From positions 1,860,001-1,924,000 of the forward strand of contig JAALGH010000011.1 in NCBI GenBank assembly GCA_011800155.1: 64,000 nucleotides of DNA. The letters are read 5' to 3'. Position numbers and translations under genes: made by a program. The stretch is from Flammulina velutipes. Its lineage: Eukaryota; Basidiomycota; Agaricomycetes; Agaricales; Physalacriaceae. The notes beneath the pieces are model-generated. The model made no database searches. It was not told the DNA's origin and was given only the letters and a program-made list of their open reading frames with translations. Of the stretch, positions 42,219-64,000 are shown piece by piece. The number at the start of each line of letters is the position of its first letter. Position 1 is the first letter of the stretch.

Positions 42219-43379
42219 TATATGCGCTCAGTCATTAAGCTCTAGCACGGTTAATTAAGCTTAGATGGGCGCTTAGTAGAGTGCAACATTCCAGAGTAGG
42301 TTTCCGAAAAGCAACGCGAGATCGTCGCTGCAAACTAAGGAAGAGATTGATGTGATTGGTTTGGTGGTCCGCGCGAGACAAAATTGAATATCACTAGATA
42401 AATATACTTACGCTTACCCGTTCTGCTTATACCAAGGTGTCTATCCTTTCTGCCACGTGCACTATCACTATAGTTTATGCTTATCCCTTTTGCCACGTGC
42501 GCTATCCTTAGATGAATGTCTTTCGTGTCACTGTAAGTTATTTGTATACCACTAGGTACATACCAGTATCTACCATACCCTCGACTACTATATAGCGACT
42601 CTACGTGAGTGTTCCAAAATTAAGGAGAGGCAGAGGCAAACAAACTCCACACTACGGATTTGAACCCACAGCCAGATGATTTGACGCCTACCGTCAAACA
42701 CGTTTGAACATGAGCAACTTACATATTCCGTCACGTGCGGCATCCAATATCCACGCAACTGTGGCGTGTGGCGCTAAGATATCCAACAATGGCTCGTTGT
42801 GGAATGCGATTTGTCTGAATTAGCATTCACGCCCGACTTGTTTGCGTCGTCGATTGGGCATCAGTGACTGACATAAGTGTCAAATAACCTTAAAGCTATC
42901 TCATTCGTAACCACCACCCACTTGAATCGTTATAAACAAATCAAACAAGATGCCGCCGTATACCTTGGAAGGACTCGCGGGTCCTAAACGATCTGATTGT
43001 CGAGCTGGTAGGCGTTCAAGACGCTACCACCCTTACCCAGCCCGGGCGCGAAACACGGTAAATAAATCCTATGGAATTATTTTATCGTTCTCTGATCAAC
43101 AGCATGAAGTATTGTAAGAGGTCTATGGGGCCCTTCTTGAAAGCACGAAGGCGGCGCACTGAGGAAAGAAATACGCCGCGCGTGTTTGAGGACGAAGACA
43201 CAATGGTAGTTGAGGACGAAGACGCAATGGTAGTTGACGACTAGGGGAAAAGGTACGTCCCTTTGCCTATATCCGTTGTATTTGCTACATAGGCCCTTTA
43301 GTGTACAGACATTATTTGTAGAATGCAAGCAAACAACCCTTGCCGTTAGATTCGCATCGCCGCCTCGAACAGCCATCCC
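42219..43379. other. Intergenic with imperfect and tandem repeats
   Basis: I see no supported gene. Two near-identical stretches around 42443-42470 and 42484-42510 share TATCCyTTyTGCCACGTGCrCTATC and contain a CACGTG E-box. A 24-base unit (gttgaggacgaagacacaatg and its copy with one change) is tandemly duplicated at about 43177-43228. A degenerate tRNA-like stretch near 42655-42715 is discussed under rejected items. Confidence 0.5.
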
Positions 43380-44760
43380 AGAGCACAATCCTCTCTGTCC
43401 TCCAATAAACTTCAAATGCGCCTTCAGTATACCTGTAATACGGCCATCATGCTCTGGTATCCGTGCGAAGGACCGGAATACTTCGCCCAGTGTCACGTCC
43501 AGTGATTCTCTGAACCAGAGGTGCATTCCAAAGGCACGCTTCATTCTCGCCGGCCAGAATGTTGTCTGTTCGGCGTATGAACTTCTCGATGTGGGCGTCC
43601 AACTTCTCGATGTGGGCGTCCACTTTGTTGTTCATCCATATTTCAATCTGCACCTTGACATCGTCCCGGAAATCAAAGTCACCACCCCATTGGGAAACAA
43701 GAGTAGCGAGTTTCATACAGCCAGCGGTCCATAGCCGCTTCGCGCGCGCGATCAAACTGATTTCCGATGAAGAGTAGCCATATCCGTTCGGTGGGCGAGA
43801 GTCCAGGAGCGCGTAAACTTGCGTTGACTAAAGGTTGTCTGATGAGGCGGTAAACGAGCCCAAATGTGCAATCTTTCCACCAGGCCCCCAGCCAATGCGA
43901 AAGGTTCTTCCAAAGGCCAAGCCAGCATCCATCGACACATTGTCATACCCTTTGAAGGACGATGAGGCATTGGCAACACGGGCGTATTTCTTTGACGGTC
44001 GGTATGAGGGTGGTTCTATGTCATGTGCAAAAGACGCCCGCTAATACAAGGTTTGAATCGAGATCTAAAGAACAAAAAATGGAGTGAACGCGCCACACTC
44101 CCCCATCTGAGTCGCGACTATGTTTGCGATTTAAATTAGGGAGTAGAACACGTAGGGTACACTTTTCTTGGCTGTTCATCATCGCGCGAGCGTTGTCTGC
44201 CTCTTCTGGCATTCGAAAGAGCAATGTTTGCATCAATTGTAGTCTCTGGGTGTCCATTCGTGGTTGGAGGCTGGCATCCATGCTTGGGACATCGTAGTCG
44301 CCGTTGTCGTCCTCGACTAACGCAGTCTTACTTCGATGTGGCAGTAATTCGTCCTCTTGCATATCAGAGTCAATATGATTATCCGTGTATTCGAAAAACG
44401 TAACTCTATCATCAGGGACGACTAGGACACGAACTTGAACTGCACAAGTTACGAAAATTGGTGACAAAGGAGGCCAAATCGACGCACTTTCAAACTTGTT
44501 CTGTCGAGTCGCGGGCCGTCCCAATATCATATTGTATGCATTAAGGCTTCTGGGAGCGGCAACGATGAGGTCCCCTGGAGATTCCGAGGTGAGCTTTCTT
44601 CTCTGCATGGGTCATGGAAGCGAGAATAGTTGGATGAAGCTCCAGACAAAGAGGCATACGTACACACGTCGATGATACCTGGTAGGACGCCACATTCAAG
44701 CTCGAAGATACCACGTCCAATAGTGTACTGTGTGCAAGGCATTGGCGGACGAATTCAATC
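43380..44760 (-). pseudogene. Nup96/Nup145C-like nucleoporin relic
   Basis: Read on the minus strand, fragments in the order of the Nup96 part of Nup98-Nup96 appear, but in different frames. First is SLQPRMDTQRLQLMQTLLF (about 44190-44290). Then PSKKYARVANASSSFKGYD and DAGLAFGRTFRIGWGPGGK, the GRSFRVGWGPGG hallmark, ending at a stop at 43828. In another frame comes GLSPTERIWLLFIGNQFDRA, followed in a third by KLATLVSQWGGDFDFRDDV. Last is MKRAFGMHLWFRESLDVTLG, the WKRAFGLHLWY-type motif. Stops and frame changes separate these, and a 21-base tandem duplication (DAHIEKL repeated) lies at 43580-43621. One in-phase intron-like gap exists near 44040-44100. A functional full-length Nup145C is essential and presumably encoded elsewhere. 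This copy looks truncated and frameshifted. Confidence 0.58.
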
Positions 44761-45772
44761 GAACGTGTATAGAGAACATACCTATATCATCTGACTTGAT
44801 AAACAGTACACCATGCTCTATGATTGTCGGTTATGGAGTCCAATCATAACAGATGCTTGAAGTGTCGGTCAGTCGATTGTTGACTAGCGATACACCGATA
44901 CCTGCAAGTGCGATATTGAGAATATCAGCAGAAATACTGGCATTTTGACGCATTGTTTCTGCCTGTGCTAACCGTAAAGTCGGATAGATTGGTTCGAGGT
45001 GTCGAGAGGCGGGATGACGAATAATAACTCAGGGAAAAATTCGAACATTCCTGTAGTGATGTGTTTACTCACTAACCTTCACCTCAATACACATTCTATT
45101 GCTCTTGCGCTATCCTTGAGGCTTGCGCCATCACAGTACAATCTACGCAATGCGAGTTATTGTGTAAAGAAATCGGAAATGGATACGCACCACCCATAGA
45201 GAAATGAAGTGTTATGCTATCGCACCGAATGCACAATCGTCCAAGTCGGTATGCCGACTACCCATCCGTACAGGATGGAGTTGGACGATTTGCGTGAGGT
45301 TATTCAACTGTGTATCTATGAGGATGGTTGGATGGTGTTAGTTGAGTCTGAATGTAATGCTGAAGGGATCACATACTATGTGGGACTAGGGAATCCAGGA
45401 TTGTTTGTTCTGATAATCCGTTTGAATTAGGAGTCTTAGAAATGATACAGGAATAATAGGGGGTTTCTGTCACCTACCATCATCATCAACCATGAATCAG
45501 AACAGCGCCACCATCCACGCAGACTTCGAAGACTACCCGGACCGCCCTACGACTCTTTTTATCGGGAATGACCCAGTACGTCCATTTACCTCCGCTGCTT
45601 AGACGTTGCTAAATGGTCAACAAAGGGGTCAAACACAGTGCAAACACCACACCAGATAGAGAGCGGGGAAGAGATCATACACCAGGAAAAGACAGGGAGC
45701 GAGACACAAGCGGAGAGCAAGAAAGATTGAATTGTACAAGTTACAAAAAAGAAATACGTCCGTTGCGCTACG
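44761..45772. other. Intergenic; no supported gene
   Basis: Short frames occur (for example 44999-45199, 45209-45430) without motifs. An ATG at 45492 begins a plausible short exon (MNQNSATIHADFEDYPDR) followed by a GTACGT donor, but no continuation was found. This may be a truncated gene start. Confidence 0.4.
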
Positions 45773-48362
45773 TTAATGCGATTCTAGAAAAATGCTTGCC
45801 AACGACTCGCTCTTTTGGACACCCCGCGAAACCGCTCGTGTCTGCTTGAGAAGACTCTTCCAGTCGGTAGATTTCCTCAGTTTTGCTTTCCCATTCCTGC
45901 ACTCCGACAAACGGCGCTGGTAAAATCGTTCGCAATCCTTTGACCAGAAACCAATCTCCATGGCAGCGTGAGCAAACGTCGATGGCCTGGGCCACCACGA
46001 CATATGTGCTCTCTGCGGATCATCGTTATCTTGTTGCCCTATACAAATCGGTTGTCAGCTAGGAGCTACAAAGTAACTGCATATTCTCACCAGTTTCAAC
46101 GTAATACACGCCACAGATCAAGTCGATCTCGTCGGGTGTCAAGTCGTTGTCCCAGTAACCTATTGTTTGCGACGGTGCTTGAAAACATCTACCGTCTTTC
46201 TCGACATCGCAAGATGGGCCATATATAACGTCTTCCGGTCTCACGATTTCTCGTGCAATCCGGCCAATGATACCACCAGCTAGGATAGCTGCCCGACCTT
46301 TGGGACCACGTAGAAAATCATCGCGCAAGCTCTCGTATGCTTGGAAGTCAACGGCGTCTGGGGTGTAATTTTTGGGGCGGAAGCCAAGGCCATGCTTAAT
46401 ACTCGGTTGGGAATGCAACGATTTGGTACTGCCATGCCAGAACGTGTTGAAAGGTATTCCATGAGAGATGAGCTGAAGAGCAACATCTTCTAAACGAGGA
46501 CCCCATTGACAACGTATGATTTGAAGAACCGTAGCTGCACTGCTGACAGCCAGTTCAATATCTGTGTCGTAGCCTTTCAAGGTGTTGGCGAGCCTGAACA
46601 AGTAGAACTTAGTCCCATCGAGACTGAGACTGCGAATTCGGAAGTTCCAGAATGAAGTATTGTTGATATCTGATTCATAGTCCTGGAGATCATGACAACT
46701 CGAGGGAATTGACGATGTGGTGCTGGCAGAAAAGAGGAAACCAAAAAAGCGAGATAAACCTGTTTGTGTTGCGAGAGATATATCAGGCTCCGGATACAAT
46801 CCCGAGTCCAACCAACACCCATTTCCCAATAACTTCCTGACCATATCCCACGCGATTTCGTTGGTTGGAGAAGTGTCATTGGCTCCGTCAATGAATCCAT
46901 ACCGATCATACGCGATCTGGCTCATGGTGGTTGATAGCTCAAGAGGATAGTCGTGTTGGTCGTGTGAATGTTGTCGGGCTAGATCTGTGGCAGTAGAAAA
47001 ATTGCTGGTGATTGAGAGAGGATTATCTGGGAGCAAGGTGGTAGGAGGTCCTTCGTCTCTAACATCGCTGGAAATCTCTTCGTCGCTGAAGTCATTGTAC
47101 AAATCATCCAAATCATCAGGATCAAACTCTGTGCAGATGTCCCAACAGTTGCTCCACGAGTCGTAAATTTTCTGCTTGGTGCCATACGTGGCCCATATAT
47201 CCTCGTAAGTTCTTCGGCCGGCCATGCGACGTACTCGAATGCCATCCTCCTTCTCCCACTTCCAAATAACTGCGCCCCTCTTTCCAGGACACAGTCCGGA
47301 TTCCGCATGTTTCTCTTTCGCCTTTCGCACCTTCCTTTCCTCTGAAGTCTCGGCCTTCTCCCGTTTAGCGTTGTGAGCGTCTCGTCGCTGGAAGAAGTCG
47401 CTCCAAGTCTCTACTGGAGGCTGAGTGATTGTCGACATTGTTGTGGGGAGAACCATAGGTGGGTTGGATGTTGCTGGCTCAGAGTTTGATGTTGAGCCAG
47501 AAGCTGGCCGAGACATCTCTCGTAGATTGGCCACAGCTTTGAGTGAGGGAATCCATTGCAGTTGGGAATAACGAGCAGAGAGTGGGAGCTCCAGATTGTC
47601 AATGTCTCCCCAGGAAATGTATATAGGCATATTTCCGTGGGACACCAGGGAGATGAGGTCAAGGGGCCAGTCTTTTGCATCTATGATTCCACCAACACGC
47701 CGTAGGTGTGGATCCCCAACATCAGAGGCTTCCAGCTCTGCCAGCCATTCAGGATGAATACCGGTCAACTCCACCAGCTTCTCTCGCCATTCATACCAAT
47801 CAACCGCCTGCACCTTCACCTGCATGCACATGAATGCGAAAGACATGCAACCCATAAGAGGAAGAAAGGCATCGCGCGAACGGGCAGCCACTTCTTGCAT
47901 GGTACGTCGACTTCCCTTCTTAGTGGAGTATCCGTATCGAGTGGGCCATGCCCAAAGGCGGAAAGTTGAAGAGAGGGACGAAGGTGCAGCCAGCTCTAAC
48001 ATCTTTAGGACCACTAAACGCAGAGTGTGTTCCAGGGCCATCCATTCTTCCACGAGACCAGAACTGAGGCACCATCCATCTCGCCCAGCACGTTCCAGTG
48101 GAAATCGATTATTAGCGATGTTCAGTCTACCAAAAATAGGTCCGTGGAATGAATGATATAGAGGGACAAACAACAAGAATGGCATTGTAGGACGAATCCA
48201 ATTGAGATCCCGTAGGAAGGCTAGCTGGCCGATATGGTCCGGATTATCGTAATGTTCGACAGGGAGTTCGGAAGGGATATTGTCGCGGATGACAGAAAAC
48301 ACTTTGCCATCGGCCACCATGTGGGGACCTTCGAAGGACGTTATTGTTAGCGCTGGCCTCAA
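45773..48362 (-). CDS. Large conserved basidiomycete protein of unknown function
   Basis: The gene is a long exon of 767 codons plus a C-terminal exon, about 840 residues in all. I recognise the style of a multi-copy agaricomycete family that has no functional name. Hallmarks are the segment ISWGDIDNLELPLSARYSQL, a charged middle helix (ETSEERKVRKAKEKHAESG), KRGAVIWKWEKEDG and RRMAGRRTYEDIWATYG, and an acidic stretch DPDDLDDLYNDFSDEEISSD. An intron (GTGAGA...TATAG, about 46036-46087) splices in frame to a final exon with MSWWPRPSTFAHAAMEIGFW, DCERFYQRRLSE and the stop at 45773. The long exon opens with TTG. A possible start is a lone ATG at 48422 joined by an intron with a weak GTCCGT donor. 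I see no catalytic motif. It is transcribed divergently from the TET/JBP-like gene. Confidence 0.72.
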
Positions 48363-48422
48363 GTAGGATGACTACGATAATTAGCAACGATAAACCATGT
48401 CGAAGAGATTTGAACGGACCAT

Positions 48423-49441
48423 GACATGCAAAAGGCTGGAGAGATGAGATGGTCCCTCAACGATTTATAGAACAAATGTATTCAACCACTGTCGAGGGAT
48501 GCAGTACAAGGGTTTACTCCTCGTAGCAATCAAGTTTGAGCGTAGAGGACAATCGGGTAGTATGGGAGGACTAGGAATCTGCCACTGACAAGGGTTCACC
48601 TCTCGCAGTGGCTAATTCTAGACGACTGTAGGAAATGTAGGACGAAAGGGTAGGGTTGAGAACTAGGAATCTGCCACTGACAAGGGTTCACCTCTCGCAG
48701 TGGTTGATTCTAGATGAGTGCGTGTTACGGAGGACAGAAAACGTAATAGTGGCGGCGTGGGAAACTTTCCTGTTTGCACGAGATTGGCAACAACACGTGT
48801 TGTTGGCTTGCCTTTGCTCCCCGACCACTGCTCAGTGTGAATCACTGGGTAGAGGATTCGGGTAGTTGTACGGTTGGCCACTACTGTTGAATGTGAACGT
48901 TCTGCAGTATTACCGCCTCACGTCGAACTGTCCGATCGCGATATCTCGATCATATGCTTGGTTACAACGTGATGGTGTATCTTCGCCTCCTGTGTGGGCT
49001 GGTTGAGGAAAGAGACAGCGATGAAGAGAAATGTCTGGTCTTGCTCTGTTCTGTGAATAGTACGTTGCTTGGCACAGCCTGACAGCAAACTCTCACCTCC
49101 TGCGTAGCCTATCAGTTGGGGAAGACAAGACATAGATGATGAGAGCCCTGTTCAACGAGGTACGTGCGCCGCTATGTGGTCTGTAATTTTTAATTCACAC
49201 TTCATGACCAGATGCCAATATCGTACATTGCTGGCGAAAGGATCTCTAAGTACGCCTGGCTGTTTACCTGTTACCAATAATTATCCCCTTTTCAACTTCC
49301 ACATTACTTCGCTGCCACCACTGCACCTGATGATGTCACTGCTCAGCGATAAGACAGTGCAGAGTGTCTTATCCCAGTTCACTTGCATCATATTATGTCA
49401 GCGCTGCTTTGAGCATTTTTGCATGTTTCTGCTCTCCTGTC
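48423..49441. other. Bidirectional intergenic region with hairpin-bearing repeats
   Basis: About 1 kb separates the divergent unknown gene and TET/JBP-like gene. The proximal part carries the direct repeats described next. The rest shows no gene. Confidence 0.5.
48570..48717. repeat. Two 42-bp direct repeats, each with an internal inverted repeat
   Basis: An identical 42-base block occurs at 48570-48611 and 48662-48703, 92 bases apart, and imperfect similarity extends about 14 bases further. Each block contains CCACTG and CAGTGG arms around an 18-base loop (48582-48587 with 48606-48611 in the first), so each could form a small hairpin or a dyad binding site. A third, decayed version (gtacaagggtttactcctcg) lies near 48505. 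Position upstream of the minus-strand gene suggests a regulatory or transposase-binding role; that is inference. Confidence 0.75.
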
Positions 49442-51856
49442 ATGGCTCCCAAAAAGTCGCCTGCAACGCCTCCAGAATCTCCCATATTCACACCATTCCC
49501 TGGCGAGCGCTTTGAGCATGTCACTTTTCACGTCAAACGGGATCCAGTGGTACCTAAACTCGTTAAACTCAAGACATGGCCCGCGACTACCTATCTCTCT
49601 CGAGGGGATCGTTCAGAGAATATTCGTTTACACGACCGACATTTCTCCCGCGTACATGAAGCTTTTCAACAAGTATGCTGAAGAGCACTTGAATATTCAT
49701 GAGGGACCAGACAGCGAGATGCTTGACTCTGGTGCGTTGGTACCCCTTTAGACGATTTTCTTGACTTACCCCCTTTACTTCAGGCGAAATTCAATTCTGT
49801 GCTGGGGATGTTGTGTTTGCACGGGCTCTGAATGCTGCAGGTCCTATGGCAGATCGTCTGCAGCTTTTTCTAGTTCGAGCGTACGCATTGTGTTTAATTC
49901 CATCTGCATAACCTCACACTGTCATAGTGACCAGCAAATACCAGAAGATGTACTCAACAGTCTCCATGAACTACGCAAAGAGTGTCTTGGCCCCTTTGAC
50001 ACCCGGGATCCAGTCAACGGCATGACCAGGTTGGAGAACGATGCACGCTGGGCTTCTGTACGAGGTGGACGATGCGTCTCCATGGGACTCAATGTCCAAC
50101 GTCCCAAGAGCGTAGCGAACCCCGCAGCGTCAGGAAAGTCGAATGCGAACGACACAGTCGACTGGGGCTTGAAGATAAGAGGTGAAGTCAATACTGTGTG
50201 TTCTTTCTGTTCGCAATCGTATTCTTTGTCTAAATACCCAACTTCAGCAATTTACTGCCGTCGGAAACCAAATCCTAGAAGCCTTCGATCCTACCACCTA
50301 CGAAATACTGAAGAGGAACGCAGAGCTGAAGAATCTCCCGAGGGTTGGAGCAGATAATAATTGTGCATTCAGTGGCGTTCAGGTGAATTTGGCATCATCT
50401 GTCAGCTGGGAATCCCGTACGTATCATGTCTGACCTTTCAAAAATCAATGCTAATCAGCGTGCAGGGGAAGGCTTGAAAAAGCAAATGAAAGATTTCGGC
50501 GGGAAACATCGGGACAAGAACGATGCTGGGGGTGGCGTCACTCTTTTCTTTGTCTACGCTGACGTCCCTCGAGCTGAAGGATACGAAGGCGGAAGATTTC
50601 ACTTTCCCGAACTTGGTGGCTACGTTATCCTTGATGCGTTCCTAGTCATCGGATTCTCCGGACTGCGACATCACGGCGGGACCCCTCCCAGAGCCCCGAA
50701 GGGTGTGGAACCAGATCCGCGCCACACTCGCCTTGCTGTGGTCCTGTACCCTCCGAGAACTGTTGCCAATGGGTCTGCAGTGTATAGTCTGTTCGCTGGT
50801 GGAAGGGATGAAGTTATCCGGCATGTTCCAGAGTACGCAGACATTCAGTAAGTGCATGTACTGCTCCATCAGACTTGTATACTGATAGTTGATGAAGCGC
50901 GGAGAAGAACAAACTCCGTACCCACGTCATGACATTCGCAGAGGACGGCCCACACATCATGAGTCAAGGAAATCTCATGAATTTCATCGGACGTGGGGTC
51001 TTGCAAATGGTTACATCCCATCTGAGACAACTTCCTGATGAATGGGCAGTTGACATCGATCCCAACGAGTTCCTTCAATCCATTACCTTCCGACCAAAAG
51101 GCACTGCTCAGGCCGATGAGCGTCAAAGCCTTGAACCGTGGGCGTGGGCTCCGAGGGTTCGCAGTGAAGATTCTGCAAATATCGGTGCGTCTCTGTTTGT
51201 CTCATCTAGTGATTTTGAACTCAAGGTTTATGCCAGAGCCCGCACTTCGATCTGAACGTCAGTTGGCCCACGAGCAATGGGAAACCCACTGCACTGATGT
51301 TGCCCGCTACATTCCATATCTTGCGCAATCACTGCCAGCCCTTGAGCCTCTACCGAATGCCATAGTCCCTACTCCGAACCCCACGAGACTCCCGTCAAAA
51401 AGCAAAGGTTCGTATACTACGTCAATCAGTGAAGTCTTACTGACGACTAAACAGTAGGCCAAGGTAGTCAGCAATTGACAAAAAAAGGCTATCCCAAAGG
51501 CAATAAGCGCGTCTATGACCGGTCGAGTACGTTATGACCTTGAGCACTGTTTGACATTCGCTAATTCACTTTTAGCTGACGCTCGTATGACTTCCAAAGC
51601 AGTGGATAAGGCAACCAACGAAGGAATGCGTTACCTGGCGAAGAGGAAACGATCAACGATAGTCGAGGAGGACGATGACATGTCAGAGCACGAAGTTTCT
51701 GTTGTTCTGAACCATCGCAAGAAGCAAAAGGTGCGGTACGCGGGGGTCGACGGTGACGATAAAACTAAAGCTGGACGTAGGGTAACACGGAGTCAGTCGA
51801 ATACAATGTACGCTGGGCGGGTTACTCGTCGGAAGACGATTCGTGGGTCCCGTTGA
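49442..51856 (+). CDS. TET/JBP-type Fe(II)/2-oxoglutarate dioxygenase
   Basis: Splicing about nine exons from ATG 49442 (MAPKKSPATPPESPIFTPF) gives about 640 residues. The core begins with NCAFSGVQVNLASSVSWES. After an intron come the iron-binding HxD in FGGKHRDKNDAGGGV, the strand TLFFVYADVP, EGGRFHFPELGGYVIL, the distal His in GLRHHGGTPPRAP and the 2-oxoglutarate-binding Arg in RHTRLAVVLYPP. This order is that of TET/JBP double-stranded beta-helix dioxygenases, which oxidise 5-methylpyrimidines in DNA. The C-terminal part is basic and nuclear-looking (LAKRKRSTIVEEDDD, HRKKQKVRYAG, GRVTRRKTIRGSR). In basidiomycetes, TET/JBP genes are known to be expanded in association with KDZ transposons, and a KDZ transposase lies about 8 kb downstream. 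All active-site residues are present. Calling it another DSBH subfamily is the main alternative. Confidence 0.78.
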
Positions 51857-52003
51857 ATGAGATGTAAGCTATTTGCAACCCATTGTCTGGCCTGATGCTA
51901 CGAAACACTCAGAATCGGGACAGCGGACGAATTACTCGATGTGTACAACCAAAAAGCTGGGATATCCGTGACGCAGAATGGCCATGTCTACTTCAAAGAT
52001 AAC

Positions 52004-54059
52004 ATGGAGCTGCCTAGATCAGACGACGACACACTGGACATGAGTCACACTCTCCTTAGGTTGGCGAGTCCGTCATTAGATGAAGAGCATTCCGAGGATT
52101 ATCCGTTCGACGAAGACGAGGAGATGGAGGACACCGAATGTCTCCTCTCTACGAGTATGACAGGTAAGACTGGCATCTCTGCTCTGTATTTCTATTGAAT
52201 GCTCTCAGATATCCCATTCCTACGAGACCTTACATCCCACGCAGTGCGAAAGGCCCTCCTTCATTTCGCACAGGCTTGTCGTGCCATCGAGAACCTTCCC
52301 CATGGACACCAAAGTGGATCTTTCCTACAACGATTTGCTAGCCTCCATCAGGCGTTCAACAAGGATTCCACCAAACTGTCTACGCTGGAGGACATCTATC
52401 GAATGTGGCCACAAACGAACCTTCTTGTTCAAGATACAGATATCCAGGTTGCCACTCTAGTACTCCAACGACAACTCATCATGTGGACACGCTACTTAAT
52501 ACGCCACTGGATCCATCATCATATTGTCGACGGCACCTCCGTTTCCCCTTGGCTGAAGGTGATCATCGGAAAGATCTCGTCTTCTGTCAATGAATGGATG
52601 AGTGTTGAGAAATCTGTTATAGAGTTCACTTCCACCGATCTCCCGTTCATCGATCCCCCACGCGTATACAAATATCATCGCAATCTCCCAACTTCACGTG
52701 GTCGGAAACTTTCTCTCGAGCAAAAGCAGTCACGCATCATCAACGACACGCTGAAGGTAGTGGAGGCTTGGTTCGGGTTGCCCGAGGGAGACTTGGCTGA
52801 TGCCCAGCGTCAGTTTCTCGATATGCTCGCAGAGTCTGTGCCGGAGGCAACACTACGTGCACTCCTTCTGTTGCCCGTCATAGCAGCAGCCTACGACGAC
52901 CCTCTCAATGAACTTGCGTCAACTAGGAAGCAAGGCAAAAGGCGCATCAAACGAATGGACGATAGTGATTGGAAGGATCTCAAGAACGGATGGCAAACAC
53001 ACCCCTTTATTCACGACCTCTCAAATCCATCCAGTTTACCTTCGCGTCTACTATCCCGCCTTCAAGAGGTTTCCGACCAGTTCATTGCTGTCAATCAAGT
53101 TCCCGTAGCTCCTCGTCGCCCTTCTGCTGGTACGCAAATCAATGGGGCACCATACCAACCAGCCACTGCACTCTTGATGGACCCGGTCGTTGAGTTCTTG
53201 CGAGAGCTATTGCCGTGGATTGACGAGGCCGAGGACCGTGACCCAAGTCAGTTGTATTCGAAAGTCTCAGAGGACCCAGACAAACGGCTTCCATTCCGAG
53301 AGTGTGCACCCAGCAGGGCACATCTCTTCCAAACAGACATCTTCAAGGACCCATGTCCAACAGACATCCTACCTGTAGTTCGAAGTCTACTCATCCACCG
53401 AGGTATTACCTTCAACACGAAGAAGGTACATACCCATCCAGGTCTCTTCCGAACCCGGCAGGACTGGTTTGACTTTCGGGGAGAAGGAGGCGCAGATGAT
53501 GAAGCCTTGTACTGCAATAAGGGCGCTTACGGTCAGCCAAACGCTCGATCAACCGAGAACTTCGACATCTTTTGGCGTGCCGCAGTACCGATCTCCTATT
53601 TCTTGACGACTGAAGGATTTCCTCCGACATTCGAGGATACGATACGTTTCCTCCGAGATGAGAAGCGTAATGGCTTTTCTCTCCCTGCGCTAGGGCCCCT
53701 TGGCACGTTCCTTCTCGCCGAAGACCTGGTTTATTCCAAACTAGTGGAAATGCCTCGTGCTGAGAACTTTGCAGCCAATGTAGCAGATCTCAGCATGGGT
53801 GCCGCAGATGCGCTAGTCAAACTCAAGATCACCAAGGAGAAGGACACGAAGCAAAATATCGCTGTGGCGTTTCTTCATTTGTATCAGTGAGTTGCCGTGC
53901 TTCTTGCTTGATCGCAACTGATAGATGTGAACATATAGATATCTCGATTCAGTGTTCACTCAGGCTGAGAAAGATGTGATGATGTTCGACATTTTCATGG
54001 TGGAACATGCACTGTGCAAGATGAAACGATGCCAGCATTGGCACTCGTATTTCGATTAA
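52004..54059 (+). CDS. Unrecognised protein between TET/JBP-like and HECT-like genes
   Basis: I do not recognise this family. I start at ATG 52004 (MELPRSDDDTLDMSHTLL); the same frame is open upstream to about 51913, so an earlier exon is possible. A very acidic head (DYPFDEDEEMEDTECLL) is followed, after an intron ending 52208, by a long exon to 53888 and a short last exon (YLDSVFTQAEKDVMMFDIF, ending KRCQHWHSYFD). The long exon is mostly helical. Distinctive stretches are IMWTRYLIRHWIHHHIVDG, TRKQGKRRIKRMDDSDWKDL, GAPYQPATALLMDP, TDILPVVRSLLIHRGITF and NARSTENFDIFWRAAVP. Total length is about 660 residues. There is no signal peptide or membrane segment. It is colinear with the TET/JBP-like gene, only about 150 bases downstream, and may be part of the same mobile unit. 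Confidence 0.72.
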
Positions 54060-54420
54060 CGCTGTACTACAAGTATCCGGATATTACAAAAAACTATCGA
54101 GTTCGATTTAATTCCCGTGATTTCCCGTCCAACGAAGATCACATGTGACCGCCGGTGGTACGACCTGGTTACTCCCGCTCTGCCTTGATGCGTAGCCAGA
54201 CGTCAGAATGAGGATTATGCTACATTTCTCTGTCCGTCGACTTGACTAAAGGCCCGACTATTGGTCGGAAGGTGCGGGAGGCGCCACAACCGTGTATACT
54301 GGTGCAACATCCTACATGCAGAGATGCCAACGATAGTTCCCTCCGTTCCCCGATGACATCGACTGGGCTCAACTCTTCAAGGTATAAAGATGTCGTCTGG
54401 CAAGTATTGCCCACCAAGTC
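54060..54420. promoter_or_regulatory. Promoter region of the HECT-like gene with TATA box
   Basis: This 360-base gap has no gene. TATAAA at 54383-54388 lies 33 bases before the next ATG, a good TATA-box position if the leader is very short. Confidence 0.5.
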
Positions 54421-57400
54421 ATGTCTGATCAGCACTGCTCTGTGGTGCTTTGCCGATGCCAGGGGCCTGTCGGGGTGAGCAGATTCCAATGGTATTTTGT
54501 GGATTTTCTTAACGAGTTTTCTGCAGGTTCGTCAAGGCATTTGCGCCTGTACCCACCCGGAATCGCAGCATATTGGAGTCGGACTTCTCAATCGCTGGTG
54601 CCAGGACGGCCAAGAGTACCAAAATGTACGTAGGACTTCTTCGCTGTCATCTTTGAAACTCATAATCTTTGCAGAACCTGACGCCAGGCGACGCCACAGC
54701 AGTTTGTGCAAGGTGCCTGGCACCTTACTTTGCGCACCTCTATGCTGCGCCCAGCTCTGCAGCAGCCCCAGAGCCGTTTCCCATTCCACCGCAGCACACT
54801 ATGACACCTGCCAGTGTAGTGCCTCCCAACCAACTGGGATCTCAAAACTACGCCATTGCCAGGTATACTGCTGTCCCGCCAAACCCTAATGCACGTCGCG
54901 ACGGTGGGCAGAACCGCTGGCGGGCCTCCACCTCGAATACGCACCAGCCTGTGCAGCCAGTCCACACGCTCTCGACTCAGCCTGTGCAACCAGTCCCGAT
55001 GCTCCCGATGCTGAGCCCCAGCCAGATTCCTTCTGTTGGACAGTATCCGGACACCACTGTTCAAGCGGGTTCCAGGCGGGTGCTGGCCCGGATGGCTCGA
55101 ACCGATAAAACTTTCCAGATTATCATTTCCCCAACCAATCTTCTCGATTACCACCGCAAAGGTCTTCATGCGCCTGCCGTGGACAAAATTCCCATGTTCG
55201 TGGACCGTGCTAAACGACTCGGACTTTCTTTCCAGGTCATCGTCAGAGTCAATTTAACCGATTCGGTCTACAACACATTGAATGACCATATCCACACCTA
55301 TATGCAACAGCAAGGATTGGCGTTGACCCCCATCTCTTCGGAAACGCAAACACTCCTCGAATCTCGGCTCTGGACAGTGGCTCTTCCCAACCGTACTGCT
55401 CAAAACCACCGCTGGACCGCAAAGCTGGGCGAATGGATTCCTATCAAGAAGCTCAAAGTCAAAGAACTTCTGATCGGCGTGGCGAAGTATGCCCCACATG
55501 TCGCTCTGGATTCCTCTCTCAGTGTCAACGGAGAGAACGAGTTAATCTATCCGATTATAGTCGGTGAGTCTGGTCCTTGAGCAAAAGAGAAATTCTGACG
55601 TGTTTGTCAGTTCCCCGAGTTGGCATCATAGTAGGCCCGTTTGCTGGAGGCGGCCACCACTTTTGCCTCACGATGCGCCTCTGGAGTGGCATGGACGATG
55701 TCAACCTTGCCAACACTGGGAGCACGGTTTATTGCATCGGTGACTGTGTCGCTGAGGTGTGTGATACTATCCATTTTATTCGACTGCCCCACTTATTCTG
55801 ATCATTAGGATACGGTGCCAGCTTCGTCTTCCGAGGAAGTAGGTCTACCTATCCTCCAGACTTCGACCCCAAGACGTAGACCCCGGCCTGTCATGCATCT
55901 ACAGATACCCGATCCCGATGATATGTTTCCCCCTACCGAGCCCGGGACTCCGATTACTCCTTCATCCCCTTCTTCTCATCGTCGTCTTCCAGCTGTTGAG
56001 GGTGAACCTTCAGCAGGTGAGGGACTGGCACATGACGAGGCAGAGGCTGTGAACGCACTGCTGCTCCTGGACGACGAGCCTGATGACGAGGATGCGGATG
56101 ACGATGGAAGCCTCCCAACCGTGGTGCACCGAGCTCTCCTTGATCATTGGGAATCTTGGGTGTTGGCGGTTCATGGACGAGACCGCGTGAGACCAGCAGG
56201 GTCCCTGAGGGTGACTGCAAGAACATCGAGAGACGCTGCAGACGCTCTCTGGCAAACTTGTCATTCATTGGCACATGACTTGGAGGTTACGTATATGTTT
56301 CCTTATGCTCGGGTTGGACCTTTGAATATGACGGTGGACAATCTATCCTCCCCAGACTCATGGTTCAGAGTTGGTGAAGGCTACTCTGCTGAAGATGGAC
56401 ACCGTCTCTCTTATGGAAATGGTGTTCGTGCGGCGGTCATCGGCGAGGCTCTCAAACTCATGACAGCCAATACCAGGTATTGGATGAGCTTGGCCCCCGA
56501 CTTGTACACGCCCTGTCATCTGCAAGTCACGCCTTCTACCGCCGACCTTGCATACTATCACACGTGTGGGCTCTTGATTCAGCTGATTATTCGCTGGGAA
56601 GGAAACATTCTACCAATCTCCCCTTTCATCGTACTGTATCTCATGAAAGGTTCTCTCAGAGACGCCATCAATTACGAAGTTCTGGAATCACTTGACGAAG
56701 AACTTCTCAAACGCTTCGTCGATGCATGGCCTTCAAGGCTTGAACCGTTGGATGGCCCATTGATCTCTGGCTCTTTGCCTGCTATCACAGCAGCCTCTTG
56801 GCTCAACGTAGCCTCCGTACGTTCTTTCATTAATCTGCGAGAACCATTCTGACTCTTGATTTAGACTGAGGAGTTTCGGGGATATAGCACAGAACAGATA
56901 TCCGAAGTTGGTGAACACGTTCGCAATGCGCTCTTCTTGGGGGGCCTACCCAACAATGCATACAAGCAATGTGTTGGGTCTATCAAAGATGGGTTTGACT
57001 TGAAAATAGACGGGAAGATCTTGTCGATGGTAAGTCAATGTCTAATTTAGAAGTGTGGTTGATAATAACTGAACAAACTTATAGACATTGGACTGTGAAG
57101 TGGACCCGCAGAACATTGCACGGGTCTTCAGCTCAACCCGAGTTCTACGAGGCATGGTCCAGGGTCGACGCTTGTTGACCTTAGAAAGGTTCAGAGACAT
57201 TTGGGACCACGTTTCGAGACACAATGCAGATGTAGAGCCAGACGAGTGGGCAACTGAGGAGCGGTTCTTGAGAAGCTTGCGCCGTTGGCTGAGACAAGAC
57301 CAAAGTCGATTGCCTCGTACTTTAGCTTCAATAACTGGAAGTCCCTATCTTGACCCATTTTCTCAGATCACTGTAAGCTGAATTTTCTATTAATTCATTA

Positions 57401-57647
57401 TTCATTCACTCATTTGTATTTCAAGTTCAAATTCATGCGTCCAGAACGGAACCCCGCCTACCTTGACCCACCCGCTGATCTAGGCGGTATCCATATTCAT
57501 GCATGCAATAAGTTGATCGACATTATTGTGGATACACCAGGATGGAATGCCATTATGAACTCTCATTGGCGGGTAATCGACGAGAATTACTTTCCGGCTT
57601 TTGAGGCCAACTTCAATCAGGAGGTCGCGGGATTCCAGGGTGGCTGA
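54421..57647 (+). CDS. Zinc-ribbon protein with possible HECT-like C terminus
   Basis: Splicing about nine exons from ATG 54421 gives about 915 residues. The first three exons encode a Cys/His cluster (MSDQHCSVVLCRCQGPVG, CACTHPESQHIG, WCQDG, VCARCLAPYFAHL) that probably binds zinc. A Pro/Gln-rich linker follows, then a folded region (PTNLLDYHRKGLHAPAVDK, GPFAGGGHHFCLTMRLW), an acidic loop (LLLLDDEPDDEDADDDG) and a long helical region. The C terminus reads LASITGSPYLDPFSQITFKF, then GGIHIHACNKLIDI. This resembles in order the HECT E3 ligase end: FvTGs..lP, a beta strand, then HTCfN.L.LP with the catalytic Cys. The match is distant. If correct, it would be a ubiquitin ligase encoded next to a DNA-demethylation-type enzyme. 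Otherwise the function is unknown. It converges on the integrase gene with about 35 bases between stops. Confidence 0.72.
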
Positions 57648-57683
57648 TATGTAATCTGTATTCTTGTTCTTGCGTACAGCTCT

Positions 57684-59586
57684 CTAGTAAATTGTACCTA
57701 AAATGACATGAGCTCTACTCAGTGCCTTTCCCCAGACATCAACGCGTGACGCATCATCTGTAGCATGCCGATGGGGCAATCCCTCGAGATAAATGTCCAA
57801 CGCCTCTATTTCTTCAGCTGAAAACGGGCAACGTACATCCGGAACGTTGACATGAGCAAGTCGATGAGGGTGGTTTGCTTGCAACGGATTTTCATCTTCT
57901 TCCCGGGCGTTATGATCAGCATGATGTTGACGAAAGGTAGTGGTATCCAAGTCCTGCCAGTCAACACCGTAGCCTGCCAGTTCGTCGTCAGTCAATGATA
58001 CTGGATCTTCGGAGAGTACTGGAGCAAGGCGACCTCGAACGCCTTGAGTTACCATTCCATGCGTATACTTTTGAATAGGACTACGATGGGGCTCAGTTCG
58101 ACTACTGATAACATGGTGGTTCCATGCAACTGCCCAACGTGCTGCATCTGTGTTGATGTCTTCCAAGAAGACGAAATGCAGAAGCCAGATATGAGCGTCG
58201 AGTTCAGCGTTGAATTGACCTGCAACTTCAAGACGTCGGAACAGATCCTTCCATTTGCGTCCAAAGCCTACAGACACATAATCATTAGCTATGGAGTTGC
58301 TATTACATAGTATCATCGAAACCTTTCGTTACATCCAACCACAATCTCTCTATGCGTATGTTATATACAGATCTATGAACAGTTAATCTTCAAGTCTAGG
58401 ATTCATACTATTCGCACATACCGTCCAAAAATGTAGGAACCTCTGCCTTCGCCTTGAACCAACTCCATTTCTCTTGCAACATAGAGATTTTCGGTGCCAT
58501 GGTCTCCTCGAAGTCGGCTTGGATAGCCATACTCTGCAACAATATCGTGAAACAGATCGAGCACCGTTGCTGCTCGGTTGTTGTTGCTGGCTCGTATGCC
58601 CACGACGAGCCGTGAAAACCCATCGACAAATCCATGGAAGACTATTTTCCACCGGATGAGACCTGGACGAAGGATATTAGTGACATGCGTTGAATAGGGA
58701 GGGATAGGTCATCTCACCGTGCTGGCCATCATGATGCCATAGGCTATTTGGTCCAGGGACTGAATAGATCTGTCGTGTAATACGACGAGGGGCGAAGGTT
58801 CGAGTCGAAGGTCCAAGAACCCTTGCATATGCATCAAGAATACGTTGGCGGGGAACGCGCTCTCCAAGAGACATCAAATATCCATCTATCATCCTCCGAC
58901 CAAAGGAGGGAAACTGGTGATATGCCTGGAGGATATGTTGATCCAGCTCAGTATCGGTGAGCGCAGAGAGATCAGAGGATCTTCCGGGATAGTAGGTAAT
59001 GATGGGAGTACCATCGACTAGAGTGCTGCGCTCGGAGACAGCAGGGCCTGGCATTGAGATCCCATACTCGATTCGACGACGACGAATGGTTCGTGCATCA
59101 CAGTTAAAACGTAATGCGATTTCTGGATTAGTCGTCCTATCTTGAGCCAAAATCGTAAGCTGCTCCTGCGGAATATGAAGAGCAGGGCGTCCTGGCCGAC
59201 CGGTCCGAATGTACTGCCTCTCGTAGCTACCAGCAGACGTACTGGCTGGATCAGCGGAGAGGGATAATGCTTCGTCCAAGTTGGTGATCATGTCGGTGAC
59301 ACTGGTACACATAGTATGATAGGTTGCCTGGTTAATCGCTTGAGACGTCTACATGAATTCTCCTTAGTAGCTGGAGGTCTTTGATGCACTAAATGAAATT
59401 ACTCACGTATGCATGTTCAACGTGGGGTCTGAAGTCTTCACAGGCACGTCGTTGCTGAAGAATCAGACGAGAGTCGCCAACTTGTCTACTGACGACCTCA
59501 TGCACTTGGCGACATAGATCCTGGTATGCAACACAGACATTATCTGCAATAATCGGCAGTGATTCGAGCGGCGCGTTCGAACTCAT
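57684..59586 (-). CDS. DDE integrase-core protein with helix-turn-helix head
   Basis: Exon 1 from ATG 59586 (MSSNAPLESLPIIADNVCVA) is joined by an intron (about 59347-59407) to the main exon. That exon contains a basic GRPGRPALHIP motif and a helix-turn-helix (NPEIALRFNCDARTIRRRRI). The catalytic core is an RNase-H-like integrase fold: the first Asp in LWHHDGQHG, then after an intron GFVDGFSRLVVGIRASNNN, the second Asp in RLRGDHGTENLYV. After two short introns comes the Glu in GRSVYNIRIERLWLDV. The rest (HIWLLHFVFLEDINTDAA, WNHHVISSR) is the family's C-terminal part, ending at 57684. All three acidic residues are present and the exons keep frame, so activity is possible. This fungal rve-like family often occurs as isolated single genes. 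Its relation to the neighbouring KDZ element is unknown. Confidence 0.85.
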
Positions 59587-59938
59587 GAGTATTGGAGTTG
59601 AAATGAACTCGAATTGCCGGCTTTATATCACTTGCTGAAAACCCAACCATTGCAGGCGGGTATATGGCGCCAGTGTGGTTATAGCCACAGACCCATTTTA
59701 CTGGCTGTGTGGTTATTACCACTTAGAAATGGCCTGTACCCCTTGATATAACCACTCAGACCCAATGTCCATATATATCCAGTATTAACCAGAAGGACTA
59801 CATAAGCCAAGGCTAAGGTGCTGGTTATACACTGCAAAGAGTTCATTTAATTGCATAAGTCCAATATAATACATGCCTATCTACATATGTCCGTATATGG
59901 GTAGGGAGTCAAGAAATGATAGAGCGCATACAACCGAA
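59587..59938. promoter_or_regulatory. Integrase upstream region with clustered TGGTTAT motifs
   Basis: Within 160 bases the heptamer TGGTTAT or its complement occurs four times (59676, 59710, 59748 inverted, 59822), with one variant, TTAACCA, at 59785. Two of the sites are dyads: TGTGGTTATAGCCACA and GTGGTTATTACCAC. The cluster lies just upstream of the integrase start and just downstream of the KDZ stop. It could be integrase-binding subterminal repeats or a promoter array; no terminal inverted repeat was identified. Confidence 0.55.
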
Positions 59939-62900
59939 CTATGCCTCCGCCTCATCGTCTGCATCCTGCCCGCCATCTGCATCCTGCCCACCATCCGCCG
60001 TAGGTTCGTCCCGCGCCTCGCCATCTTCCTGCACAGGAGTCGTTTCCTCTTCCGAATCCGAGAGATCGATGGTACACAAATCACTGCGATCCGGTATCCT
60101 CATCTTGCGCAAGCGGGGTGCAGTCAACCAGAGCCGCTCGAAGCGACGGGCTAGATTCCGTCGAACTGCCGCCTGCCGCTTTGCCAACGCAGCTATGCCT
60201 TCTTGCCCTGCCGTGTCAAGATCCTCTCGCTCCACCGAATATTCCGTCTCCCACTTGCACGCGTCGTGTTCCAAAGATTTCAACGTGAACCCCCGCTCAT
60301 CCATGATCATGGTGATCTCCTCCCGGTACCGCATCACTCTCGCTCGACTCTTCAACCACTCGACCCGTAATTGGCTGTCAACATCATCTTGGGACATACC
60401 GTCTGTCGAGCCCCGGACCATCCATATCCACGAAATCTCGTACGATCCGCTACCCAGCTGGTGTACGTCCGGCCCAGTGTTGCCTAGCTTCCGTTTTTTT
60501 GCCTTGGGGATATCAATATCGAATATTTCGCTATCGAGCGCGCGAACATCCGACTCATTCAGGACTCGAAGGTCTGCCTGCCAGTCACCTGGGCCCACCA
60601 GCACCAATAGCGCCTCCCTCGCAGCACGGTACTTTGTCACTGCCAGCTTGCTCTTCGCATCCAGGCGTTCCAAGACATGCGATGTTCGTGTCGTTGCTGC
60701 AACACCCCGGAGATTCCTGTATCGGAATGCCTTGATCGAGCGTTTCGTACGCTGCATCGTGCGGATGACCTCCAGTGTGTCGTAACACTGAGCTTTCCGC
60801 AGCTCTCCTTCCTTTTCGGCTAGGTCCTTGTAGCAGCCGTCGCCGCGAAGTCCAATCTCTAGCGCCGACGGAAGAAAGACCGGCTCGCCTTCAATGTCGC
60901 CTAGACGGCTCCCGGAAAGTTTGGCCAACAGAGGGGTGACGCAGGGCATATAGATCGCTTGAAGCTGGCGAAACTGAGAGATATGGCGTTGACATATGAT
61001 ACGCTTATCCTGGATGTCCTTGACGATACTGGGAGATTCGGATTCACTGCAGTTTGACAACTGTATGATGCGTCGTCTATAGAACGGTTCAGTTAAGCCC
61101 AAGACGAAGTGTAAGTAACAGTACGCACTGCATATCTTCTATGAGTAGCCCTAGCATCAAACAAGCCGTCGCACTCGTTTCGTGAATACGTGGTGTGGTG
61201 AGCGCGCTGAGACGTTCTGTCTCCTCCAGTGCCATCTTCACCTGATTGACACTCTTATCTACATTCAAGTTGTCAGTACATCTGGGATCCTAAAACAAAC
61301 AAACAATACTTACACGTGACGGGATTGTAGTAAGGGCTCTTCAAAGTTGGCGCTTTCTCCCATGCCTCCACCTCCAGCAGCCACTTCTTGGTATGATTCG
61401 GCGGCACCAATGATGTGAACTCTTCGTGCGCCTGCGCTTGCTGAGCGTGCATGGCTTGGGCCTTCGCCAGACGGCCATGAAGATGAGCTCCTGTGCAAGC
61501 ATCAACATATGCGTCGGTGATTGAATTAACAACTTACCTAGTCCAACAAGTTTGTGCCAGTTGTGGGCGCCAAACCGTCGATCCAACATATCGTGCCTAG
61601 CACCGGGCAACATCTCCTTTGTCGACGACGCTATATGATTCAACTGGGACCAAGTTCGTTCAATTCCCTCGCCATCTGTCCGTCCAACGCCGAGACAGAT
61701 GTTCATGCAATACAGACATTGACAATGAAAACAGTGGCCTTTGCAGTGGCACTTGGGAATGCCACCACTCACGACCACGCGCGCTGGAACTTGCAAATGG
61801 GCCGGCATCTTCTTCATCCTGTCTTCGAATTTGATGTGGTACTGACACCAAATGTCGTAGGAAATAAAGAGCTCACGCAGCTCGTCCTTGTCCCCGCTGA
61901 CAGCTGAGAGCGCGATATAATCCATGTTGCAATAGCTAAACATTTCATCATTAGCTTACAGTACATTGTCGGACTCGACCGTGACTTACCGCTCACCACG
62001 TTGTAAGTCTCCGACCCCGAGAGGTCGTATCATTTCATGGCGTGCGCACACTGCCATACCAACACCAGTCGCCTGGAGCCCCGTGGCATTCTTTGTCTCA
62101 GCGTGCGAGAGGGTCTTGAAACCACTGCACGAACTGACCTAGCGATAGGTGAGTACCCTGAGATTGCGAATGGACCAATGAACTTACATCAGTCTGGTGA
62201 TCGTATCGTGCGAGATGAGCGAAGTATTCGGCGTTCGAGACGAAATACGCCTTCCCCGTGTGAAGTCCAGGATCAACGGAAGACGGTCGACGTAGATTTT
62301 TCAGACGAAAGTTGGCATCCAATGCGATCATTAGTCGGAATCGAAATCTAGTGTGATATTATTAATGCAAGCATATACGATATCATCAGGATGCTTACTG
62401 CTCTGTACTTGGCAAAGACTGCCAATTATCTGGAAGATTAACACCAGGGTGCGGGCATGCTGGGCATTGGATTGCCAAAGCCCCAGGCGCGGTCGTGGCA
62501 ATCCCGTCTTGAAAACTACCACGCCCAGCACGCTTGACAAGTTTGATGTGGGCAAATTGTCGATTCATGCGGAATAGGGCCTTAGAACGATCCTACGAGT
62601 CACCACCGTTAGCGCTATGGATGCAACGGGTGTAACGAGAGCGAACCTTTGGAACAGAGATTCCAGTATTGTCGGTTATCCTCTCTAGCGCGTTGTAGAA
62701 CTCATGGTTGGAAAGGCGGCCTGTCGCTGAAAGCATCTCGAAAAGTTCCAGAACCCGGAACGTCGCGCCCGTCTTTGGAAAACTCGTTGTGGATGGCATA
62801 ACCTCCGCCCGAAGGAGTTGGATGCGGCTAGGCTGTTGTCGCTCACAGCCACAAAAGTCCACGTTGACGAGGTGAATCCCTGTCTCGTGTATCATCGTGA

Positions 62901-63646
62901 ATGTCCGGGGTGCAGAGATGGGTCGAACACAGGCATGACCACCGTGTGGTCCTAGTTGAATTCGGAGTCCTAGATCACGTAGAGAAACACGCTTGTAGAA
63001 ACCATCTTCCCATTTCTAAGGAATCAAATTAATTTGGAATGCGAAGCTGTCGGCAAAGAAAACACACCTTAACTCTATGGAAAGGAAGTCGACGATGGCT
63101 TCTCAGGATGCACTCGTCACACTCCATAAAGACGCCGAAACAGTCCTCGCATGTGTACTGGGCGTGTCCTGGAACCCCGATCACCTCCCGCTCTTCAAAA
63201 TTAGCGAGGCAGCATTCGCAGGAGGGCTTCATATGGTCCCCTCTGCCTTCCAGCCTCACAAACTCATCCAGGAACTCCTGTGGTCGAGCGTCCGTGATCC
63301 ACGATAGTAGTGCTTGGTCCTGATAACCGTCAATGAATACAACCCCAATATCAAGCCTAAAAATACTCACTGAAGCCTTGTAACGACGAGGTTTCTGCGG
63401 TAGCGCTTGGGCAGAAACAGTCTCAGGGCGAAGCTCAGAGGGTATCGCGTTTGCATAGGCTCTAGAAGATGCGGCATTGACACGAGCTACTCCGTCCGGG
63501 ATGGATGTTTTATTTCGTTTGCGGTCCTTTGAGAGCCCCGACGTTCTTGCCTCCAGGAAAGTGTAGTCGTCGTCTGAAGAGTCCGCTCGTGCAGGTCGAC
63601 GTTTTTTCTTGAGGCCAGGGACAAGTGGTGCTCGTTTACCAGGCAT
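59939..63646 (-). CDS. KDZ-superfamily transposase with CxC2 cysteine cluster
   Basis: This is a full-length transposase of about 1,020 residues in about ten exons. The start at ATG 63646 (MPGKRAPLVPGLKKKRRPAR) gives a basic, Ser-rich head. A Cys cluster follows (CECCLANFEEREVIG, YTCEDCFGVFMECDECIL), as in the CxC2 domain found with KDZ transposases, then HRVKKWEDGFYKRVSLRDLG. The second zinc segment is IQCPACPHPGVNLPDNW. The RNase-H-like core shows the first Asp in LMIALDANFRLKN, the second in LFISYDIWCQYHI, a CHCKGHCFHCQCLYCMN-type insert and the Glu in TDGEGIERTWSQLNH. A long coiled-coil C-terminal part follows (RHISQFRQLQAIYMP, VLERLDAKSKLAVTKYRAAR). The acidic tail ends in an 18-base tandem repeat coding GGQDAD. 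Every exon I traced is in frame and all catalytic acids are present. The element could be active, but I found no terminal repeats. Confidence 0.9.
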
Positions 63647-63840
63647 GATGATGAGAGGAAGAGGCGGATTCCTGTCAACGGACCGTGATGTTGACCACGT
63701 GACCTGCACGCACGCGCGCGTACAGACTTCGTGTTGAAAAATTGATTGAATTTTAGGACTACAGATATATCATGGTACAATGGCAGAGATAAAAGAATAC
63801 AAATGATATACAACAAGAAAATACAGCGGTGTATATACTT
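63647..63840. other. KDZ upstream region
   Basis: A short region contains the transposase leader and a run of alternating purine-pyrimidine (cacgcacgcgcgcgtac) near 63708-63724. No terminal inverted repeat was recognised. Confidence 0.35.
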
Positions 63841-64000
63841 TTACTTCGTCAAGTCAACATCCTCCCCGCACAAGAATGCATGCGCGTCCAAGCGATCCCA
63901 GCATGGATTCAATTCGCATTCTTTTCCTGCCTCAACCTCTCTGTCGTATGTAGCCAGAGCCTTGGATCTGGGAGAAGTGTTGAGTAGGTAATATAGGACA
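63841..64000 (-). CDS. 3' end of a gene running off the window edge
   Basis: An open frame enters from the right edge and stops at TAA 63843-63841 after 52 codons. It encodes YYLLNTSPRSKALATYDREV and, near the end, CELNPCWDRLDAHAF, with a biased, protein-like composition. No domain can be named from this fragment. It may mark the right flank outside the mobile region. Confidence 0.42.
   Translation of the reverse strand, partial: VLYYLLNTSPRSKALATYDREVEAGKECELNPCWDRLDAHAFLCGEDVDLTK

Follow-up and report, generated by a model that had tools for sequence, protein, structure and literature searches.

Kyakuja KDZ transposons are said to have been described by Iyer et al. in 2014. The occurrence of TET genes within KDZ transposons is established in the sections of a recent survey covered here (Kojima 2025, PMC12730594), which give Kyakuja elements CA..TG ends, no terminal inverted repeat (TIR) and 7-bp target duplications. 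According to the same sections, all TET-positive IS3EU elements of rusts and Tuber indicum carry the TET gene between the transposase and an alpha-kinase, and the Agaricomycotina section, in the part covered, lists Kyakuja, Zisupton, EnSpm, Plavaka and Helitron2, and not IS3EU (PMC12730594). In the portions of the sources available, IS3EU elements are defined by 6-bp duplications, TA..TA or TAYGG..CCRTA ends and a TIR of over 30 bp, and IS481EU duplications are given as about 4, 15 or 25 bp. Styx, an IS3EU-related element of Zymoseptoria, has four coding sequences, a 36-bp TIR and 6-bp duplications (PMC10853768, in the part covered). Here we analyse a window of 64,000 nucleotides from Flammulina velutipes (contig JAALGH010000011.1, here C12; C12:1860001-1924000) in a genome of 38.1 Mb on 23 contigs. 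An initial annotation had assigned six adjacent genes at 45773-63646 (positions are those of the window unless a contig is named) to a single composite KDZ unit. We are confident that the locus instead consists of two nested DNA transposons, an outer IS3EU-type element of about 17.6-22 kb and an inner 11.8-kb Kyakuja element that was inserted later.

Five of the six genes, encoding a TET/JBP-like protein, a 563-amino-acid (aa) region, a protein referred to as ‘HECT-like’, an integrase-type transposase and a 770-aa protein, recur as a block on C3 and, reversed, on C5 in protein searches of the genome. Relative to the window, the 770-aa core is 98% identical on C3 and 100% on C5, the 563-aa region 100% and 99%, and the ‘HECT-like’ exon 100% and 74%; at the DNA level, identity between copies of the block reaches 99.9% over kilobases. 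A divergent copy spans C4:374186-391765 and has the TET-like, 563-aa, ‘HECT-like’ and integrase genes at C4:374-385 kb in the order and orientation of the window, with proteins 30-71% identical to the window family; the protein search of the genome found no match to the 770-aa gene in the C4 element. Four copies of the outer element were found (C12, C3, C5 and C4), whose coordinates give sizes of 20.5 kb for C5, 17.6 kb for C4 and, with the Kyakuja insert left out of the count, about 21.8 kb for C12. A DNA search with an 18-kb query missed the query itself as well as the copies on C3 and C5; nulls of this search mode on long queries are therefore unreliable.

The C12 copy is a mosaic over 42360-59643: its left end is nearest to C5 (99.9%, versus 97.8% to C3) and its right part is nearest to C3 (99.7%, versus 88% to C5), a pattern that suggests recombination between copies. 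The C3 copy carries a 2.7-kb insertion near its left end (C3:518091-520780).

The outer element has ends common to its copies. The left TIR, TTTGGTGGTCCGCGCGAGACAAAATT, lies at 42360-42385 on the forward strand, at a left junction shared with C3, C5 and a short relative on C13; the right-end counterpart, written as reverse complement, is TATGAAGGTCCCCGCCGGACAAAATT, with the right end seen in C3, C5 and C13. The left ends of C12, C3, C5 and C13 all start TTTGGTGGTCCGCGCG, with flanks that are unrelated in DNA comparison. On the right, C3, C5 and C13 close with GGACCTTCATA, which is the reverse complement of TATGAAGGTCC, so that the two ends make up an imperfect inverted repeat of about 26 bp. 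Further inside, a sub-terminal stretch at 42992-43095, with no strand assigned, forms an inverted repeat with C12:1935227-1935331 near the right end (74% alike). One C4 end is identical at 26 of 26 bases to the right TIR of the window family, and the inverted repeat of C4 extends over 92 bp at 79%, compared with the TIR of about 26 bp and weaker sub-terminal repeats of the window. When up to three mismatches are allowed, the TIR core occurs at 10 sites in the whole genome (three on C4, two each on C3, C5 and C13, one on C12). Nine of these are element ends, and the tenth, C4:391631, is located some 110 bp inward of one; a backward control gave no sites. Exact 6-bp target duplications flank the copies on C3 (ATTGCA), C5 (TACAGG) and C4 (GATATA on both sides), that is, three of the four elements that have both ends.

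We base the IS3EU label, which is probable, on the ends, the duplication length and the rva_4 integrase. Several observations weigh against this assignment or against the element as drawn. The left ends of C12, C3, C5 and C13 are TT rather than TA. The 2.6-kb relative at C13:1749711-1752298, which has both family ends, is flanked by an 8-bp duplication, CAGAAAGT, and not by one of 6 bp. The C12 copy lacks the last right-end bases, with shared sequence ending at C12:1935931, so that a 6-bp duplication of the window copy is not demonstrable. Finally, the gene models are codon-and-splice Viterbi predictions from sequence alone. The TT left end and the single 8-bp duplication would suit a separate integrase-type superfamily, near GingerRoot/IS481EU or undescribed, an assignment that we regard as unlikely, given that the C4 copy has TA at both ends and a 6-bp duplication and that IS481EU duplications have other lengths; the right ends of C3, C5 and C13 are also TA. 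Within the IS3EU-type family, the C13 element is probably a non-autonomous derivative.

The near identity of the copies, and their inclusion of a Nup96-like piece, could also be taken for a segmental duplication of host genes involving no transposon. We consider this very improbable, as the copies have sharp common ends, TIRs and exact duplications on C3, C5 and C4, the divergent C4 copy has an identical TIR, and the flanks are unrelated. Of 20 short probes, 15 were taken from the flanks of the C3 and C5 copies (13 on the left side and 2 on the right), and none of these matches the C12 stretch; among the other five, two in a C3 insertion and one in a part specific to C5 gave no match, and two inside the C3 element matched.

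The sixth gene has ends of its own. Homology between C12 and C3 stops at 59643 and restarts at C12:1931430, and the intervening 11,779 bases start with CA, end with TG and are flanked on both sides by GAAAACC, the first copy at 59637-59643 on the forward strand and the second at C12:1931423-1931429. The C3 copy has a single GAAAACC within uninterrupted sequence. The insert, 5′-CAACCATTG...CCTGGCCTG-3′, occupies 59644-64000 on the reverse strand and continues to C12:1931422. It contains the KDZ transposase gene (59939-64000, reverse strand), which is modelled with 1350 codons including the stop and runs on to 64649, with Pfam matches to KDZ (4.5e-34) and CxC2 (4.4e-37). A KDZ transposase, CA..TG ends and a 7-bp duplication together identify a Kyakuja element; by eye, no inverted repeat was seen in it past CA..TG. 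The uninterrupted C3 site and the nested duplications place the KDZ gene in a separate element inserted in the outer one: Kyakuja landed in the C12 copy, the C3 copy being without it. A KDZ profile scan of the genome gave 166 matches, part of which were listed (150 of 159 candidates scored), and none among the matches listed lies within the C3, C5 or C4 copies. The idea that one composite KDZ element moves all six genes by its KDZ transposase drew on their adjacency in the window and on the established presence of TET genes in KDZ transposons, and is refuted for this locus, with next to no probability left to it, by the KDZ stretch having its own 7-bp duplication, by the uninterrupted C3 site, by the absence of KDZ from the C3, C5 and C4 copies among those matches, and by the five-gene block having its own ends and 6-bp duplications.

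Further gene models lie in the Kyakuja element beyond the window (C12:1924993-1930358); the two that were scanned, of 219 and 647 aa, have no Pfam match over the cut-off, and no TET gene was recognised among the scanned models of this 11.8-kb copy.

These results revise the initial annotation in several respects. All six genes are present as placed. The calls of a KDZ transposase, an integrase and two genes of no known Pfam family are upheld, the TET/JBP assignment is weak and the HECT label is unconfirmed. Joint movement holds for five of them, which recur in three near-identical copies on three contigs, and fails for the KDZ gene. The six genes do not lie within one pair of ends, and the boundaries 45773-63646 match no element. 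Where no ends had been reported, the outer left end (42360) and the Kyakuja start (59644) are now located, both elements extending beyond the right edge of the window. The suggested search for shared TIRs was borne out at the ends of the outer element and that for an empty site was borne out for Kyakuja, by the uninterrupted homologous site in the C3 copy; an 8-bp duplication had been expected, and 6 bp (C3, C5 and C4) and 7 bp (Kyakuja) were found instead, 8 bp occurring only at C13.

The transposase of the outer element (57684-59291, reverse strand) is modelled with four exons, and counting along the spliced sequence gives a D..D(34)E pattern; 59392-59622 probably holds one more 5′ exon. The family rva_4 matches one window exon at 1.6e-12 and the C4 homologue at 1.3e-57, rve matches too, and rva_4 matches fall at 17 genome loci by count. 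Selection was compared between C12 and C5 for the integrase and the ‘HECT-like’ C terminus; synonymous sites were saturated relative to C4, and that comparison was dropped. Over 481 integrase codons, synonymous divergence (dS) is 0.237 and the ratio of nonsynonymous to synonymous divergence (dN/dS) is 0.09, so the gene looks maintained under purifying selection. A search of a 5.8-billion-protein set, in which scoring was confined to candidates sharing most words with the query, found 377 transposase relatives. The 120 that were listed include proteins of Trametes, Termitomyces, Pleurotus, Marasmius, Mycena and others, the named genera being Agaricomycetes, which would suit an Agaricomycete host; fungal proteins are thus represented in that set. 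A 26-row tree, for which 24 rows were picked from the listed relatives, joins the window and C4 transposases as sisters with 100/100 support. The rva_4 DD34E transposase would act at the TIRs of about 26 bp and leave target duplications of 6 bp. Both the ends and the duplications are observed, and the chemistry is that expected of the family. Movement by this integrase-type transposase would be of the cut-and-paste type.

The gene that the initial annotation called TET/JBP (49656-52154, forward strand, 11 modelled exons) encodes a putative 2-oxoglutarate- and Fe(II)-dependent dioxygenase with a C-terminal chromodomain that had been overlooked. One exon matches Tet_JBP at E 0.0057 and 16.3 bits, below the Pfam cut-off of 34.9, so there is no significant family-profile match. 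The spliced 662-aa protein gave no Tet_JBP listing at E<=0.5, PF12851 run on the genome at E<=0.001 does not list the locus, and no match was found in the PDB. H218, D220, H273 and R279 are invariant between the window and C4, over a TET region that is 64% identical in amino acids; by motif, we take the first three to be the Fe(II) ligands and R279 to be the downstream arginine. The window pattern is H-x-D, not H-x-E as in the PE type. The chromodomain matches Pfam Chromo at 4.7e-10 and 6.4e-6, and its closest PDB relatives are the chromodomains of CDYL.

The gene model joins the TET-like region, the chromodomain and the 563-aa region, which had been annotated as a separate unknown gene (52209-54059, forward strand, with a short last exon), into one protein of 1263 aa. 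In the C4 copy, a 1367-aa model has a single continuous exon that encodes both the chromodomain and the 563-aa region, the latter being 51% identical in amino acids to that of the window. We judge from these sequences that the region is probably the C-terminal part of the TET-chromodomain protein; alternatively, its open reading frame (ORF) could start separately at ATG 52199. TET-like and 563-aa matches are paired on the same strand at seven of the eight 563-aa loci (the exception being C4:3640565), and seven of the eight TET-like loci are so paired (the exception being C5:194780). Pfam returned nothing for the 563-aa region, and its single-sequence structure prediction has a mean predicted local distance difference test score (pLDDT) of 35.7. 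Among 7986 scored candidates from the 5.8-billion-protein set, those sharing most words, nothing matched the fused TET protein at E<=0.001, which does not prove absence.

A TET-like gene and a 563-aa-type region also occur together on one strand at C3:32406-36817, C3:133023-135969 and C9:1943752-1949652; within about 60 kb of these three pairs there is no rva_4 match, and no KDZ among the matches listed. At C4:3640565-3643814 a 563-aa-type gene adjoins a 770-aa-type gene, and no TET was detected.

The window TET is not close in sequence to the type that accompanies KDZ genes elsewhere in the genome. PF12851 at E<=0.001 matches three other loci, all below the Pfam cut-off, of which C1:2940553 and C8:958790 lie 10-13 kb and C6:2819659 lies 39 kb from KDZ matches. 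Against the window TET, the KDZ-side stretch at C8:958790 aligns only at E 4.1 (33% over 39 residues, with H-x-D facing H-x-D), compared with 1.4e-76 for C4 and 2.5e-25 for C3:32935. The C8:958790 protein may, as a guess, be of the AG type. The H-x-D...H dioxygenase pattern is shared with the AG-type TET of KDZ transposons and with CcTET (Kojima 2025, PMC12730594, in the sections covered).

The ‘HECT-like’ gene (54456-57647, forward strand, modelled at 940 aa) is present at four loci in the genome, every one inside these elements. Near its C terminus the motif GIH[IV]H[AT]C, which contains His-x-Cys, is conserved in C12, C3, C5 and C4; the motif resembles the HTC of HECT proteins, and the motif order also resembles that of HECT. 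Between C12 and C5, 219 C-terminal codons give a dS of 0.621 and a dN/dS of 0.20, and the gene therefore looks maintained under purifying selection. The initial label of HECT ligase failed against Pfam (no match at E<=10), in a PDB profile search (no match) and in a genome-wide PF00632 scan at E<=10, in which 15 matches fell in five host loci and in none of the four ‘HECT-like’ loci. It also failed with a home-made HECT hidden Markov model built from five sequences of PDB alignments, which scored the window at -0.9 bits and C4 at -4.3 bits; of 300 shuffles each, 98 (window) and 112 (C4) were reported, 2 and 43 of which equalled or exceeded the score of the real protein. The hhalign comparison to HECT returned a probability of 0.6%. 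No match at E<=0.001 was found among 7989 scored candidates from the 5.8-billion-protein set (those sharing most words), which again does not prove absence, and the single-sequence structure prediction of the exon has a mean pLDDT of 36.6. On this evidence, the product is a conserved accessory protein of unproven fold.

The outer cargo comprises the TET/JBP-like dioxygenase-chromodomain protein, probably with the 563-aa region, the ‘HECT-like’ protein and, in three copies, the 770-aa protein. We propose that the chromodomain may bring the dioxygenase to silenced chromatin, where the enzyme would oxidise 5-methylcytosine on element copies and keep them expressed, and that the ‘HECT-like’ protein may serve as a second accessory factor. 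A fuller version of this proposal, which we hold tentatively and consider doubtful, is a dedicated anti-silencing module made of a chromodomain-guided 5-methylcytosine dioxygenase fused to a conserved 563-aa partner region and of a highly diverged protein, similar to E3 ligases, by which a factor of host silencing would be removed; these genes would have stayed together in two lineages whose transposases are about 30% apart. Two points count against these functions. The TET assignment is weak, being founded on motifs and on a Pfam score below threshold, and the aromatic cage of the chromodomain looks incomplete, with one of its three positions altered in each of the window and C4 proteins, which weakens the guidance step.

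TET-bearing IS3EU elements are already known, and the mushroom-type version has a different cargo. It shares with the elements of rusts and Tuber indicum the IS3EU-type ends, the 6-bp duplications and a TET/JBP cargo, and differs in its mushroom-type host, in the chromodomain on its TET-like protein and in the ‘HECT-like’ gene between TET and transposase; general Pfam scans, which covered part of the gene models of the window family, gave no alpha-kinase match. Styx is likewise a fungal multi-gene IS3EU-related element, whereas its host is an ascomycete, half of its four coding sequences are specific to Zymoseptoria, and HECT and ubiquitin each have 0 occurrences in its text (PMC10853768). The inner element shares KDZ and CxC2, CA..TG ends and the 7-bp duplication with published Kyakuja elements, and differs in that no TET was recognised in its scanned models. 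In the open-licence literature, main texts being the scope, neither a fusion of chromodomain and TET nor a HECT-like gene was found described for any IS3EU element. The analysis separates two mobile elements that adjacency had merged, which calls for caution where KDZ and TET genes are linked by their gene neighbourhood. The range of TET-bearing IS3EU elements now takes in a mushroom-type genome, with a chromodomain joined to a dioxygenase, a cargo undescribed in the literature covered. If a chromatin reader directs the dioxygenase to its site, it becomes directly testable whether transposons of fungi counter methylation-based silencing.

Two further genes of the outer element lie to the left of this cargo. 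The 770-aa protein is the single-exon core of a gene at 45773-48320 (reverse strand, modelled at 832 codons including the stop) that is present in C12, C3 and C5; the core has no Pfam match at E<=10. A modelled ORF at 43447-44742 (reverse strand), found in the three big copies, contains a Nup96-like segment (Pfam Nup96 2.8e-10 and 2e-9). Parts of this ORF are matched at 82-89% DNA identity by C4:2179923-2181107, a likeness that points to possible capture of the segment from a nucleoporin gene of the host.

Beyond the window, the C12 copy carries at C12:1934033-1934776 a 744-bp piece that is 98% identical to C6:2102052-2102795 and is skipped by the C3 match; the gene model there includes a dimerisation domain of the M20 peptidase type (Pfam 2.8e-9). 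To the left of the outer element, a model that looks dynamin-like by eye starts about 150 bp from the transposon end, and 7252-42207 holds, among other enzyme-like models, eight that by motif look like cytochromes P450.

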